From a virus, in the IMG/VR virus record IMGVR_UViG_3300048912_000036, positions 1-32,235 of that record: a DNA stretch of 32,235 nucleotides; one strand, written 5' to 3'. Both the position numbers and the translations under genes were made by a program. The notes under the pieces are model-generated. The model saw only the letters and a program-made list of their open reading frames with translations, was not told the origin of the DNA and did not search any database. This document shows positions 12,612 to 25,719 of the stretch, piece after piece; the first letter of the stretch is position 1; every line of letters starts with the position of its first letter.

Positions 12612-14201
12612 TTATGTTGCGAAACTAATTTCAAGCGATGTTGCAATATGATTGTTACCGGCCAATACGCGATACTTGACCATATCAAACGCGTGCGTTT
12701 CCGCGCTGTCGTCTACTTCGTCCGGCTTATCTTCGTCGCGCGGCAAGTTCGGGATAATGGCAATTGAAGCCCGGCAATTATCCATGAAATACAGGCCGGG
12801 CAGTTCGCCCCGGCAAGAATTTTGTAAGCGGTCGCGCATAAGTTGTAAACCTATGGCGTTCGACCCAGGGGCTTTGTTTGATTTCGTCCAGCGTATGCCG
12901 CGATCCGCCATCATCTTTTCAATCGTATCTACGGATACGTCGTTGACGTTCGATATTTGGTTGTCGGCGGGGCCGGGCAACGGTTGCTTTTGAATCCATC
13001 CGTTCGCCATCATAACGATTTCGCGGTCTTTTATGCCGTCGGCGATATCGCGGGCCGACATTTTCAAACCTACGTTAGTTCCAATTTCTTTTGTGCCGTA
13101 CCATTCGGCCAATTGCACAAGCGTTCCAGGCGGCGGGCAAAATGCGTCACCGTTCTGTAATGTCGCTTCTTCGCCGTTCGCTTCCGCCCACCATCCGACG
13201 CTAAATGGATGCGTAGACCCCCAATCAAACGAACGATCAAGACGCCAGGAATACGGCACGTAGAAGCGCGGCTTTACGTGGATATGCTTATGCCAAACAT
13301 CATCGAACGCCCCGCCTGTCACCACGTCCCAATCGCCGTACAGCCATGCTCGCTTAAGGTTCGGGTCGTCGATACTTTCAAGTTCGGCGACATATTCGGG
13401 CGAAAGGTAAATATTTTCACGGTACGAACCGAAGATCGCAACTTGCGTCTTAATTACGATTTCTTCTTGTTGCGTGCGCGGGTTGAATACCGGGATTTCT
13501 TTCTTTACGACTACGCCGCTAGACGCCGGATCAATGAAGCGACGTTTCACCCAATTGTGACCGGGGCCATTCGGGTTAGTCGTGCTGAATACTTCAAGCG
13601 GAATTTCCGGCAACGGCTTTCCGTCGTGCGTCAAGTAGGCGCCAGTTTTAGGATTCTTCGGGGTGTGCTTTTCGGGTACGAACGAAGAACGATTCGTCGA
13701 CATCATTTTATCGTAGAGATACGATGTTGCCTGTTTCGTTAATTCGTTCCATCCGATGAACGGGTATTCGTGGCCGTGAAATTGGTCGTAATCACCTGGG
13801 CGTTTCGCATGCCTAAACAGCAGTTCTTCGCCGGTCGGCCAAACCCATTTGTATTCACTAGCGCTGCTAAGAAACTTCGCTCCGTCGTTGAACTTCGAAA
13901 AGAAACGCTTTGACTGTGCGACCAAATCGCCCAGGTTCTTAAATTCTTTGTCTAGGATAATGCCGCGCCAGTACGCACCGTACCCGATGCCCACATTGCG
14001 GCGGAATCGCATAAGCTGGGTGATAGTTTTACCGGGGCCGCGTGCGCCGTGATACAGCGTATGCGAACAGCGCGTGTCCAACGCCAATTCTTGCGAACTG
14101 CCGGGGATAGGCTCCCAAACGGTATTAACTTCGACACTAAGTTTTTTCTTAGACTGTAGAAGTTCGTCACGCGTTTTAATGTGCGACGGGTTTAGCTGCA
14201 T
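12612..14201 (-). CDS. terL: Terminase large subunit
   Basis: The packaging ATPase and nuclease, 529 residues. The Walker A-type loop is HGARGPGKT (about 51-59), the Walker B region ends FIGWNE (about 148-153), and STTNPNGPGH near 206-215 fits the coupling motif. The RuvC-like nuclease domain begins with RSFDWGSTHPF, whose Asp (about 326) is the likely first metal ligand; a further acidic cluster DEDKPDEVDDSAETHAFD lies near the C-terminus. ATG 14201 lies inside the end of the small terminase gene (26-base overlap), implying coupled translation. Confidence 0.92.
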   Translation of the reverse strand: MQLNPSHIKTRDELLQSKKKLSVEVNTVWEPIPGSSQELALDTRCSHTLYHGARGPGKTITQLMRFRRNVGIGYGAYWRGIILDKEFKNLGDLVAQSKRFFSKFNDGAKFLSSASEYKWVWPTGEELLFRHAKRPGDYDQFHGHEYPFIGWNELTKQATSYLYDKMMSTNRSSFVPEKHTPKNPKTGAYLTHDGKPLPEIPLEVFSTTNPNGPGHNWVKRRFIDPASSGVVVKKEIPVFNPRTQQEEIVIKTQVAIFGSYRENIYLSPEYVAELESIDDPNLKRAWLYGDWDVVTGGAFDDVWHKHIHVKPRFYVPYSWRLDRSFDWGSTHPFSVGWWAEANGEEATLQNGDAFCPPPGTLVQLAEWYGTKEIGTNVGLKMSARDIADGIKDREIVMMANGWIQKQPLPGPADNQISNVNDVSVDTIEKMMADRGIRWTKSNKAPGSNAIGLQLMRDRLQNSCRGELPGLYFMDNCRASIAIIPNLPRDEDKPDEVDDSAETHAFDMVKYRVLAGNNHIATSLEISFAT

Positions 14202-14667
14202 TTTCGATCAACACTTCTTGTTGGCGGCGCAGCTTTTCGGCCCATTGCTCATTGGTGCCATGATCGCGGACGATCATAACGTTGTTTGCCTGAATGTTCG
14301 TAGTTCCTTCGCCGGCCGCGTCTTTTGGCTTTTCGATAAAGCCGCGCAACGATGAATAGAACTTCAACATTTCTAAGCGGTCTTTATCTTCCATTGGGCG
14401 TTCAGCCGTAGCCAAATCCCAAACCTTGCGGGCGACTTCGGCTTTCGATGGCAAGCCGAACATTTCACCGTCATCGTCAAGAATGCGTTGTTTCTCGGCG
14501 CATACTAACGGATCGTTGATCCAGTGCGATGCAACGTACAGTGCGCGGCCCGTATCGGTGCCGAAGACTTCTAGCCCGGCTTTGAATGGATCGTTAGGAA
14601 ACCGCAGCATTGCGGCGGCGAACTTTAATTTAAGTTCGTCTTCGTTTTGAATGATTAGTTCTGACAT
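14176..14667 (-). CDS. terS: Terminase small subunit (probable)
   Basis: A 163-residue protein encoded immediately upstream of the large subunit, where it would recognise packaging DNA. The N-terminal region contains FAAAMLRFPNDPFKAGLEVF and a helical segment suited to a DNA-binding domain. The middle (EVARKVWDLATAERPMEDKD) resembles other phage small terminases. The start ATG has no ribosome site: it directly follows the T-run of a terminator hairpin. Either translation is leaderless or inefficient, or the leader is remodelled. The functional call rests mainly on position. Confidence 0.7.
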   Translation of the reverse strand: MSELIIQNEDELKLKFAAAMLRFPNDPFKAGLEVFGTDTGRALYVASHWINDPLVCAEKQRILDDDGEMFGLPSKAEVARKVWDLATAERPMEDKDRLEMLKFYSSLRGFIEKPKDAAGEGTTNIQANNVMIVRDHGTNEQWAEKLRRQQEVLIENAAKPVAH

Positions 14668-19698: not shown

Positions 19699-19999
19699 TT
19701 TTAGCTTCGAATTTTTCACATTTTGTATTGTTAAAAGGAAAGCTCTTTAGGTTAGATACACCACTACGTACATCGCATTCGCGTTCATACCAAAATACAT
19801 GCGGCATTTCCCAGCTTTCCTCTTGCCTCACGCAACTATAATGCTTGCAGTTGCCGCAACTTTTCACCGGCTGTTCAGTGTTCATTAATTCGACGGCTAT
19901 AACTTCGTACAGTACGTAGCGTTGATCGCCGTCAGTGTTCTTTATTATGTCGGCTACAATCTCAGCGGCGTGCGCCAGTTGATCGTGGTTACGTTTCAT
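19688..19999 (-). CDS. Small cysteine-rich early protein
   Basis: A 103-residue protein with a strong ribosome site (AAGGAG) at ATG 19999. The N-terminal half is helical (NHDQLAHAAEIVADIIKNTD). The C-terminal half carries cysteines at about 48, 51, 56, 75 and 94 (CGNCKHYSC ... CDVRSG ... KCEKFE), a spacing that suggests a zinc site and is seen in many small phage proteins of unknown role. It overlaps the nuclease gene downstream and the 88-residue gene upstream. Confidence 0.6.
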   Translation of the reverse strand: MKRNHDQLAHAAEIVADIIKNTDGDQRYVLYEVIAVELMNTEQPVKSCGNCKHYSCVRQEESWEMPHVFWYERECDVRSGVSNLKSFPFNNTKCEKFEAKNEP

Positions 20000-22609: not shown

Positions 22610-22834
22610 TTACACAGCTTGCAGCTTTGCGGCGATGTATTCGACAGTTTCCATAACATCGATTGCCCAAAACTTGTTAGACGCGTGATCGTCAAGCCAT
22701 ATAGTGGAACGCAAGCCTCGTCGGTTCGGCTCCTTTTCTTCGACGTATGAAATTCGTTCAGAATTTACGATCATCTTTTCAACCTGTATTTCAGGGTCGT
22801 CTTCATCAGAACCCCAGCTTACGCACAAGAACAT
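22610..22834 (-). CDS. Hypothetical early protein, 74 residues
   Basis: The frame is open to a GTG at 22867. ATG 22834 is preferred for its GGGG ribosome site and gives MFLCVSWGSDEDDPEIQVEK. The remainder (MIVNSERISYVEEKEPNRRG, then STIWLDDHASNKFWAIDVME) is a small beta-rich protein with a C-terminal helix. Family not recognised. Its leader contains a TGCCCACA copy (22861), and upstream is the AT-rich inverted array. Confidence 0.55.
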   Translation of the reverse strand: MFLCVSWGSDEDDPEIQVEKMIVNSERISYVEEKEPNRRGLRSTIWLDDHASNKFWAIDVMETVEYIAAKLQAV

Positions 22835-22861
22835 TGTAAGACCCCATATTTCGTTAAGCAT

Positions 22862-22875
22862 GCCCACATTACGCC
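22862..22875. repeat. 14-bp extended copy of the octamer (partner at 27445-27458)
   Basis: GCCCACATTACGCC is present here and at 27445-27458. Both copies lie in non-coding DNA and are followed by TTCG three bases later, about 19 of 22 identical over a longer span. They are the most extended pair of the TGCCCACA family. Confidence 0.75.
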
Positions 22876-22909: not shown

Positions 22910-23127
22910 GTTATATAGTCGTTAGATAAAAGTTAGATACCTAAGTCATTGATTTTATTAGTGTTATATATGTTATATAAGTTATATAGTATTACTGTAA
23001 TTGGTCTTATATTGGTACTATGGGTTTTGGTTAGGTTTTTCCCTTTTTCTTATATAACCATATAACACGTATAACATGTTTAAAATCAAGGACTTAGCCG
23101 TATAACACCCATATAACGCTATATAAC
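22910..23127. repeat. AT-rich, mirror-symmetric iteron array: candidate replication origin
   Basis: Six GTTATA/GTTAGA repeats on the left start at 22910, 22921, 22932, 22963, 22972 and 22981. Six inverted TATAAC repeats on the right end at 23058, 23066, 23075, 23106, 23117 and 23127. The spacing is mirrored (11, 11, 31, 9, 9 and 8, 9, 31, 11, 10). In each 31-base gap lies an arm of a 17-bp inverted repeat, CTAAGTCATTGATTTTA (22941-22957) against its near-perfect complement at 23081-23097 (one mismatch). The core (22990-23049) is T-rich. It adjoins the 3' end of the replication protein gene. Confidence 0.75.
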
Positions 23128-23157: not shown

Positions 23158-25512
23158 TCATTCGAATCCAAACGACTCAACCTGTGCAATGCCGTAGCAT
23201 ACGCCGTTGAATTCGTACTTCTTCATAACATCGGACGGCAGCAGTTGCACGATGTCACCTTGAGCCTTCAAAGTTTCCAACGCGCGCTTGATTGCATTCG
23301 TCGAACCAATCCTATCATTGCGGAAAGCAGCGAAGCTTGACAGAACTTGCACGATGTAGCGATGTGGTATAACGCGGTCGGCGTGCATGCGCTTTTTGAT
23401 CTTGTACTTTTCGATGCTGGCGAAGTCTTTAAGCACGTAGTTACGAAACGCCTTGATGACTTCGTCGGCCTGTTTCGTTTCCGCCGTTTCTACACCGATG
23501 TCGCCACGTTCGAAGCGTTTAAGCAAGTTGCGAACATCAGCAACAATTAAGTTCGTAGCCCATGTCGCAACGTCAGCCGAAATAACCGGATCGTACGGGT
23601 TAACGCCGACCGCGATCAACGCCGCCAGTTTCAATGCCTTAATGTGGGCACGGTTCCAAAGCTGGACGACAACCTCTTGCGTATCGTTGTTTCGCATTTG
23701 GTCGTCGCAATGCAAGTTGAATTCTTTGAACATCGCATCGGCTTCTTCGCTGTAGCGTACGCCGACGGTTTTGTTTGCGTTGTTCAACATTGCAGCGTGC
23801 GCGCATAGCGTCGCCATTTTATGAACCAGTTCGTCGGACGGTTTGATGCGCGTATGATGTTCGTTTAGTTCAGGGCGTTTGCCGTAGTATTCAATGATGG
23901 TAAAGCGAGGCAACAAACCTTCTGCAATCATGCTTTCGTCCAACGCTTCGTAGAACTTTTCGGGCGTCGATTCGCCGAGCATTGTAAAGGCCGGGGCTAA
24001 CACGGCTTCGGTGTTCTTTTCGCGGTCGCTGTAGATGCTTGGGCGCAATACGTTACCTTCGCCCGATTTGTTGTACAAGTCGAGCAACATACGACGAAGC
24101 CCCAGCATGTGCGGTGGCGCATTCCAGGCTGACAACTGTTTAAGATACAAGCCGAATTCGCCCATGAGCGAAACGAACGATTTCGATTGCTTGCCCATGT
24201 ACTTTGTGAGCGCTTGGGGCGATGCGATTTCAGCCGGGCCGATAAAATCTACTGCGGCGGGAACGGTGCGTGTTACGGCACCGATCAACTTGTCTATGCC
24301 TTTTGCAATCGCTTCCTTGCCGGTGCCGGTGCGGGCCAGCAGCAGCACGTATTGATTGACGCCGGTCCCTGATACGTTGTACGCACGCCCACATACGCCC
24401 GCCATCAGGCCGATAGCACCAGCAAGGGCGATTTCGGGCACAGGGCGCGGTGCGGCTTCATAGATGAACCGGGCGATTTCGCCGATGAGCCCAGGTGGCA
24501 CGCTATATATAGGGTTCGACGGCTGCGGGTCGACGACCTGGGGCGCGGGCGGGGCTTCTACCTGGGGAACGTACTGCGGTTCGTCCGGTACGCTGTAGAC
24601 CTGTGCGGCTTGTTGGGCCTCTTGCATACGTGCGCGTTCGATAGCTTCTTCGACTTGAATTCGCAAATGGTCAATATCGACGGGCGGCAACAGCCGGTCG
24701 AATGACTTATTAATCATGTAATCGATGTACGGCGTACCGCGAATCGTCGTTTGTTTGTCGCGGGCGCCTAACGGCGAAGCCTTGAAAATGCGGCTGATTT
24801 GTTCGCGGCTTTGCGTGTAGAAAGCGACAACGTTGATAAACGCTAAGTCGGCTTCGGATTGCGACGGGTAATGTTGATGCCATTGCCCGGCTAACAGGGC
24901 TTGAAATTTCGAACCATTCGCCGCATTGCAAGCCCGTTGCAGAATCGCTTGGTCTTCTTCGGTTTGCGGTGCGTTGCCGGTGTACATGATCGTTTCGGCG
25001 CGCTTGCCGATTTGATCCCAAAGCACGTTAAGCAGTTCGTGATATTCGACAATCGGTGACGCCCTGAATACATTACCCGTCATCGTCATAAAACGCGCCG
25101 ACGAATACACTTCAACGAAACTACGTTTACGACCCGACGGAATCGAACCCTTGACGATGATATGTAAGCCCTTTTCGCTTGGGCTTCGTTCTGCGTAGCT
25201 TACGAAGTTGTCGAAGATTTTTTGTTGCTTCGATACTGCGTCGGCGTCGCCGTGTGCGTCGTCCAAGTCGATAAAGCCGAACGGGTCATTGTTCGTCAGC
25301 ACGAAGCCGATGCCTGCGAACCATCCCGACGCCGCAGCCTCGATGGCTTGTTCGAATGAACCCCATGTTGAAGGATCGGAAACGCTCGCGTGTCTACCCG
25401 TATGCGGGCCATACGGGACTTTCTTCGGTTTGTCTTTACCCGGTTCTTCTTCGTACCGCCATACGACCCATTGCGCGTATTGGCGCATTTCGAACGGTAT
25501 GTTTTCGTACAC
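23158..25512 (-). CDS. PrimPol-helicase replication protein (DUF3987-type ATPase)
   Basis: A 784-residue replication protein starting at GTG 25512 (ribosome site AAGGCG). The N-terminal primase-polymerase domain has a DxD pair in FIDLDD (82, 84) and SxxGxH in SEKGLH (112-117), the metal and nucleotide-binding residues of archaeo-eukaryotic primases. A Pro/Gln-rich linker (about 305-340) leads to a DUF3987-type ATPase whose P-loop is ARTGTGKE (393-400), with Glu where Ser/Thr is usual. The final segment has a winged-helix look. It likely primes and unwinds DNA at the neighbouring origin-like array. Three bases separate it from the HTH gene. Confidence 0.85.
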   Translation of the reverse strand: MYENIPFEMRQYAQWVVWRYEEEPGKDKPKKVPYGPHTGRHASVSDPSTWGSFEQAIEAAASGWFAGIGFVLTNNDPFGFIDLDDAHGDADAVSKQQKIFDNFVSYAERSPSEKGLHIIVKGSIPSGRKRSFVEVYSSARFMTMTGNVFRASPIVEYHELLNVLWDQIGKRAETIMYTGNAPQTEEDQAILQRACNAANGSKFQALLAGQWHQHYPSQSEADLAFINVVAFYTQSREQISRIFKASPLGARDKQTTIRGTPYIDYMINKSFDRLLPPVDIDHLRIQVEEAIERARMQEAQQAAQVYSVPDEPQYVPQVEAPPAPQVVDPQPSNPIYSVPPGLIGEIARFIYEAAPRPVPEIALAGAIGLMAGVCGRAYNVSGTGVNQYVLLLARTGTGKEAIAKGIDKLIGAVTRTVPAAVDFIGPAEIASPQALTKYMGKQSKSFVSLMGEFGLYLKQLSAWNAPPHMLGLRRMLLDLYNKSGEGNVLRPSIYSDREKNTEAVLAPAFTMLGESTPEKFYEALDESMIAEGLLPRFTIIEYYGKRPELNEHHTRIKPSDELVHKMATLCAHAAMLNNANKTVGVRYSEEADAMFKEFNLHCDDQMRNNDTQEVVVQLWNRAHIKALKLAALIAVGVNPYDPVISADVATWATNLIVADVRNLLKRFERGDIGVETAETKQADEVIKAFRNYVLKDFASIEKYKIKKRMHADRVIPHRYIVQVLSSFAAFRNDRIGSTNAIKRALETLKAQGDIVQLLPSDVMKKYEFNGVCYGIAQVESFGFE

Positions 25513-25515
25513 TGT

Positions 25516-25719
25516 TTACGCCTTCAGCAACGGTTGTTTAGTCAAAAATTCAAATACCGTTTGAACGCGGTTTACGCCTGGGTCGATAATTTTTCCTTGA
25601 ACAAGCATCTTCAACCAACCTTCGGGAATTTCAGTTGCTTTTGCAATGTCTTTCAGTTGAAGCGATGCCGGGCGGTTCTTCAAAAGTTCGATGGTTCTAT
25701 CGCGTAATTTTGTTGTCAT
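25516..25719 (-). CDS. Small HTH regulator
   Basis: A 67-residue protein with a Cro/XRE-like helix-turn-helix at about 20-45 (LQLKDIAKATEIPEGWLKML). It is the first leftward gene beside the divergent control region, where phage repressors or Cro-type proteins are normally found. No ribosome site is visible before ATG 25719: the bases upstream are all A and T. It may therefore be leaderless. It could be a candidate ligand of one of the repeat families described here, but that is inference. Confidence 0.6.
   Translation of the reverse strand: MTTKLRDRTIELLKNRPASLQLKDIAKATEIPEGWLKMLVQGKIIDPGVNRVQTVFEFLTKQPLLKA

Follow-up and report, generated by a model that had tools for sequence, protein, structure and literature searches.

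The mirror-symmetric array of short repeats at positions 22910–23127 of the window (the whole stretch of DNA that was analyzed, a linear virus record of 32,235 bases and an incomplete genome) is very probably the replication origin of a lytic siphovirus-type phage, with the winged helix of a PrimPol-helicase as the most likely initiator and with bending of the arms by IHF and a bidirectional start as proposed steps. Origin function, IHF binding, and repeat binding are inferred: the array lies far above chance and recurs behind primase genes in isolates with different hosts, and the precedents of SaPI, PICI, and pRN1 fit.

The window derives from a lytic phage related to Septimatrevirus, Lokivirus, and Kilunavirus, and by DNA and protein similarity it is close to phage 73 (Septimatrevirus), Halfdan (Lokivirus), KL1 (Kilunavirus), and Pfeifenkraut; relatives infect Pseudomonas, Escherichia, Klebsiella, Acinetobacter, and other hosts. 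Besides the PrimPol-helicase, the replication block encodes a 67-aa HTH-like protein, a MazG-like protein, a Sak4-like annealing ATPase, an SSB, a Cas4-type exonuclease, and a helicase, and four complete relatives encode, according to their annotation, their own DNA polymerase, clamp, helicase, and SSB. The features of the window are the following.

1–14.7 kb: terminase, portal, head, and tail genes
12612–14667: terminase genes, 8 kb from the array
14.7–22.9 kb: small genes
22910–22939, plus strand: three outer left repeats, GTTATATA at 22910 and GTTAGATA at 22921 and 22932, with 11-bp spacing
22941–22957, minus strand: left half of the 17-bp inverted pair, containing the IHF-consensus match AATCAATGACTTA (22942–22954, minus strand)
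22963–22988, plus strand: three inner left repeats, GTTATATA at 22963, 22972, and 22981, with 9-bp spacing
22989–23050: T-rich core, 62 bp, 53% T, proposed site of melting and first priming
23026–23033, plus strand: TTTGGTTA, the published recognition 8-mer of NrS-1 PrimPol, which may be there by chance
23051–23075, minus strand: three inner right repeats, minus-strand starts at 23058, 23066, and 23075
23081–23097, plus strand: right half of the 17-bp inverted pair, containing the IHF-consensus match AATCAAGGACTTA (23084–23096)
23099–23127, minus strand: three outer right repeats, minus-strand starts at 23106, 23117, and 23127
23.2–32.2 kb: replication block
23158–25512, minus strand: PrimPol-helicase gene, 784 aa, phrog_3022
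23161–23499, minus strand: C-terminal winged-helix domain, residues 672–784, proposed reader of the repeats
25516–25719, minus strand: 67-aa HTH-like protein, its gene immediately preceding that of the PrimPol, alternative candidate for binding the repeats

The original prediction had described twelve GTTATA-type repeats in two inverted groups of six, and on re-measurement all coordinates agree and the mirrored spacings (11, 11, 31, 9, 9 versus 8, 9, 31, 11, 10) are exact. The hexamer GTTATA itself is intact in 10 of the 12 repeats, the exceptions being the GTTAGATA copies at 22921 and 22932. The 17-bp inverted pair said to carry one mismatch was found with a single A/C difference between its halves, and the T-rich center, put at about 60 bp, measures 62 bp with 33 T. 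The claimed adjacency to the PrimPol-helicase gene also holds, with 30 bp between the end of the array and the primase stop, as does the common direction of the flanking genes (ORFs 22610–22867 and 23158–25512, both on the minus strand). Of the 19 occurrences of GTTATA in the window, 10 fall within the 218 bases of the array, while 10.4 are expected for the window as a whole. The inverted 7-mer score of the array reaches 39, against 1.9 ± 1.8 with a maximum of 17 in 3000 dinucleotide shuffles, and the array is the strongest inverted-repeat place in the window (score 40, the next one scoring 13). Structure prediction, which had been proposed as a check, gives −33.4 kcal/mol for the array as single-stranded DNA and −15.3 ± 2.9 kcal/mol for shuffles, an excess that is to be expected of inverted repeats. 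The only match of the window to the DnaA box TTWTNCACA lies at 19712, outside the array. Cumulative GC skew has no clean switch at the array, either in the window or in the four complete relatives, and is uninformative here as an origin marker. The TTTGGTTA 8-mer in the core is one of two copies in the 32 kb and is not conserved in the relatives.

A point missed by the original prediction is that each half of the 17-bp pair contains a stretch that fits the IHF consensus WATCAANNNNTTR perfectly (Hales et al., as quoted in a passage of PMC4585315). Six matches occur in the whole window, with 1.0 expected, and two of them sit in the array. Altogether 12 exact matches were counted in a set of 13 arrays, identified by their position or symmetry, where shuffles predict 0.26, and outside the arrays the frequency is 0.02 per 250 bases. 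The middle four bases of the sites in these 13 arrays are TGAC, GGAC, GGGT, CGAC, TGCG, TCAC, or GGCT, with GAC favored; such variability is expected of IHF sites and, together with the consensus match, led us to reject the idea that the pair is a private phage motif, since the bases vary among independent arrays. In 69 primase-selected contigs, the density of the consensus is 1.90/kb near arrays and 0.147/kb elsewhere. When pairs of exact sites 90–200 bp apart were counted downstream of the primase in primase-selected loci, nine loci had convergent pairs, one had an everted pair, and two had direct pairs; this preference sinks into the background once one mismatch is allowed. The exact consensus is absent from the arrays of Halfdan, KP1, Lucius, and Axy18. 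On this sequence evidence, IHF would bind the window array at its two consensus sites.

The PrimPol-helicase, which is matched by 455 phage records, comprises an archaeo-eukaryotic primase domain related to that of NrS-1, a helix-bundle domain, a DUF3987 AAA+ helicase, and a predicted C-terminal winged helix. The DxD residues of archaeo-eukaryotic primases are invariant in the alignment (D82 and D84), and Foldseek matches the primase and helix-bundle domains to NrS-1 N300 with 28–30% identity. The full-length AlphaFold2 model matches NrS-1 N300 and, weakly, MCM helicases; its confidence is low (pLDDT 63.5), so that the MCM resemblance is a lead only. The C-terminal 130 residues fold with a pLDDT of 84, and VIA-align gives this domain Z values of 8–9 with winged-helix domains including the C-terminal domain of Mcm4 and archaeal Rpa2, MarR-type regulators scoring just below. 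A Foldseek search with the C-terminal domain alone returned no match with E below 0.001, winged-helix proteins predominating among the weak matches; the winged-helix assignment is based on this majority, on the model, and on the VIA-align values. Among 26–29 loci, similarity of the repeat words tracks similarity of the C-terminal domain (partial r 0.20–0.31, permutation p 0.002–0.030, several tests having been made, with control for the primase domain, the helicase, or the HTH protein). This co-variation is suggestive of the PrimPol winged helix as the reader, and the predicted domain is the most likely one to bind the repeats. In a clone of Pseudomonas phage PSV3 (L003:2995-5558), the annotation splits the primase into three consecutive ORFs, and in further PSV3 clones it comes in two to five tblastn pieces, which points to disruption or assembly problems.

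The original prediction of an origin bound by an initiator is supported by conserved arrays behind homologous primases, a comparison that it had itself proposed and that proved positive both in isolates and in contigs selected by their primase. Phages infecting eight host genera have a mirrored array on the downstream side of the homologous gene. Halfdan carries its array, with the repeat TATAAGG, about 20 bp behind the primase stop, at about 30.36–30.60 kb of its sequence, and a distance of 20–50 bp is shared by Halfdan and five other loci (L018, L026, L028, L042, and L047). Lucius (TGTTGTA) and Axy18 (TTTTCGG) also have arrays directly behind the primase. In phage 73, KL1, QH3, LPPA15, Guyu, and Pfeifenkraut the distance is about 0.9–1.4 kb and in KP1 1.9 kb, the repeats of all seven being of the TATAAC/TATAATG type, and in RcHartney it is 3.2 kb. 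A blind dyad scan ranks the array first genome-wide in Halfdan and RcHartney, first in the loci of Lucius and Axy18, among the top three in KL1, and outside the top five in phage 73. More distant phages have inverted-repeat arrays directly behind the primase (VpKK5, AGGGAAAA) or upstream of it (CAjan, ATAGGGT; Acinetobacter phage W9, ATAGTA).

So that the motif would play no part in the selection, the primase protein alone was used to retrieve 80 contigs, 69 of them with usable downstream sequence. The top dyad falls 0–300 bp behind the primase stop in 14 of the 69 (1.8 expected under uniform placement), and strong dyads are downstream of the primase in 20 of 24 cases; about half of the contigs have no clear array under the simple dyad scoring used. 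The repeat word differs between phages (GTTATAT, TTGGTAT, AATAGGA, TTTTCGG), and the layout and the IHF-like sites are often kept. In contig L347 the plan is identical to that of the window, with TAGGATAG repeats, CTAAGTGATTGATA, inner repeats, core, inverted inner repeats, TTTCAATGACTTAG, and inverted outer repeats, and the same plan appears with other words in L347 (AATAGGA), L325 (TTGGTAT), Axy18 (TTTTCGG), and Lucius (TGTTGTA). True Septimatrevirus phages have the array about 1 kb after the primase, in an interval that also holds a promoter and other repeats, so that a regulatory role is possible there. In phage 73 (L005:6400-6600) and KL1 (L006:6580-6790) the array also contains ATTGATTAAAAG repeats and has a TTGACA-type promoter at its far edge, possibly a second regulatory layer in the arrays of Septimatrevirus and Kilunavirus.

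Arrays also occur beside unrelated replication proteins, as revealed by a scan of viral contigs for the motif TAAGTC.TTGAT. In contig L066 (1503-4321), an inverted array of the TTGTTACA/TGTTACA type that has the same flanking sites follows a Toprim-type primase of another family (phrog_35358) at a distance of 40 bp, suggesting that the layout is shared beyond PrimPol phages. Pairs of the motif in viral contigs are convergent in 59 cases (8 of which are one repeated tRNA-containing family), everted in 30, and direct in 51. The scan is thereby weakened as proof of a convergent-pair signature: clusters in other orientations occur in phage contigs, so that the motif alone does not define an origin, and the claim on orientation is restricted to the primase-selected loci because of these controls. 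Other elements were seen as well. Most of a set of 83 contigs, nearly all from Burkholderiales, carry a convergent AATCAANGACTTA pair about 161 bp apart, which in the contigs read (among them L131, L077, L104, and L141) surrounds the DnaA box TTATCCACA; in Ramlibacter terrae (L131:2410-2571) the pair lies between hemE and priA. This element resembles a chromosomal replication-control element. Elsewhere, five direct copies of TAAGTCATTGATT are spaced by 37–38 bp (L217:918-1081, L231:4365-4528, and L260:6471-6634) or by 54 bp (L223:1075-1305), with no obvious iterons.

A mechanism can be proposed from this layout. Both mirror-image sets of six repeats would be bound by an initiator of the phage, for which the C-terminal domain of the PrimPol-helicase, whose gene ends 30 bp from the array, is the likeliest candidate, and a dimer of host IHF on the site in each 31-bp gap would bend the arm so that outer and inner repeats meet. 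The two assemblies could then load or orient two helicase rings face to face across the T-rich core, which would melt, and the PrimPol domain would prime both strands for bidirectional extension with the phage polymerase, clamp, and SSB. Two facing assemblies and bidirectional forks are suggested by the mirrored sets with their proposed IHF bend in each arm. A broader proposal, to which we give somewhat less than an even chance, is that a single blueprint (outer repeats, IHF, inner repeats, core, inner repeats, IHF, outer repeats) serves the large family of lytic phages with NrS-1-type PrimPol/DUF3987 proteins: the word would be exchanged together with the winged helix, the host-IHF sites and the geometry would stay fixed, the whole would load two helicase rings (MCM-like by fold comparison) head to head, and the plan would also be used with unrelated primases.

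The closest known counterparts of the window array are the origins of SaPIs and PICIs. In SaPIs, the Rep helicase acts through its C-terminal domain on iterons located just after its gene (PMC7581432), and the PICI origin, which supports plasmid replication, consists of two iteron sets flanking an AT-rich region (PMC6092414). The window array likewise lies immediately 3′ of the putative initiator gene and has an AT-rich region between two sets of short repeats; the C-terminal domain that acts on repeats in SaPIs has as its counterpart a predicted winged helix with a co-variation signal. In contrast to these islands, the array belongs to a lytic phage whose terminase, head, and tail genes are present in the window and whose relatives have their own polymerase; it is not carried by a phage-inducible integrated island, the relatives being complete phages with no annotated integrase. 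Its repeats are strictly mirrored, an IHF-consensus site interrupts each arm, and the candidate initiator combines an NrS-1-type PrimPol, a DUF3987 helicase, and a winged helix. For pRN1, a structured element, a stem-loop, is required directly behind the PrimPol-helicase gene, and phage BIP-1 possesses a similar stem-loop (PMC4234260). The window shares with them a PrimPol-helicase-winged-helix gene with a cis element directly behind it and a proposed bidirectional start; however, the element of pRN1 is one large stem-loop that lacks iterons, whereas the window has two mirrored repeat sets and IHF-like sites. For NrS-1, the proposed origin is a pair of 8-nt recognition sites at the center of the genome, one on each strand, the tail region of its PrimPol was reported as a new fold, and no iteron array is reported in these papers (PMC7102993, PMC8718748). 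The primase and helix-bundle domains of NrS-1 are homologous to those of the window protein, which differs in ending in a predicted winged helix. At iteron origins such as those of lambda O, R6K, and pSC101, an initiator encoded by the replicon binds the repeats next to an AT-rich melting region, and IHF helps at several of them. The window array has such repeat sets and such a region, but its repeat sets are inverted rather than direct, it has no DnaA box, and no gene for an initiator of the RepA, pi, or O type was seen.

Other readings of the array must be weighed. That the origin is read by the 67-aa HTH protein, with PrimPol recruited secondarily, is a possibility that we regard as doubtful but worth keeping in mind. 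The gene of this protein directly precedes that of the primase in most relatives, and the similarity of the protein correlates with the repeats after control for the C-terminal domain (r 0.21, p 0.043); the correlation of the C-terminal domain after control for the HTH protein is stronger (r 0.31, p 0.002), which speaks against the HTH protein as sole reader. Furthermore, several loci (L317, L330, and L332) have arrays and an unrelated small protein at that place, ribbon-helix-helix-like by eye, and the HTH gene's own promoter is devoid of repeats. The same small gene, preceding the primase in most relatives, would suit an operator array, at which a phage repressor or activator on the repeats controls the operon downstream of the primase and the symmetry reflects a DNA loop, as would the TTGACA-type promoter that follows the array in phages 73, KL1, and Halfdan and the extra ATTGATTAAAAG repeats of Septimatrevirus. 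We consider this improbable. On the needed strand, the window array and its immediate surroundings are free of promoter-like sites, which are fewer in the region than in shuffles; exact GTTATA is absent from the divergent promoter region of the HTH and MazG genes. A simple operator is weakened because the two-sided symmetry is conserved, even with flanking genes that point one way, and because the array recurs right behind the non-homologous primase of L066.

Equally improbable in our estimation is a structural origin of the pRN1/BIP-1 type, in which a large stem-loop or cruciform rather than the individual repeats would be recognized. The requirement of pRN1 and the stability of the predicted fold of the window array relative to shuffles agree with it, but the arms are just 73% complementary over 59 nt, their spacings differ by 1 bp, and what is repeated is a unit of 7–8 bp, in one orientation per arm and differing in many phages. 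Inverted repeats and IHF sites are also found at cos, att, and par sites. A role of the array as a packaging site (cos/pac), attachment site, or centromere is very improbable nevertheless, the terminase genes being 8 kb away and no integrase or Par gene being annotated in the four complete relatives.

To our knowledge, no origin has been mapped so far for the widespread family of phage replicases of the NrS-1-type PrimPol/DUF3987 kind. The array is a candidate of 220 bp amenable to tests in common laboratory phages, Halfdan on E. coli K-12 being one, and it bears on the statement that the layout of the PICI origin is unique to PICIs. It suggests a modular origin in which the recognition word changes and the architecture stays, and such an origin would permit tests of the co-evolution of initiator and origin, and of host IHF as a fixed, borrowed part.
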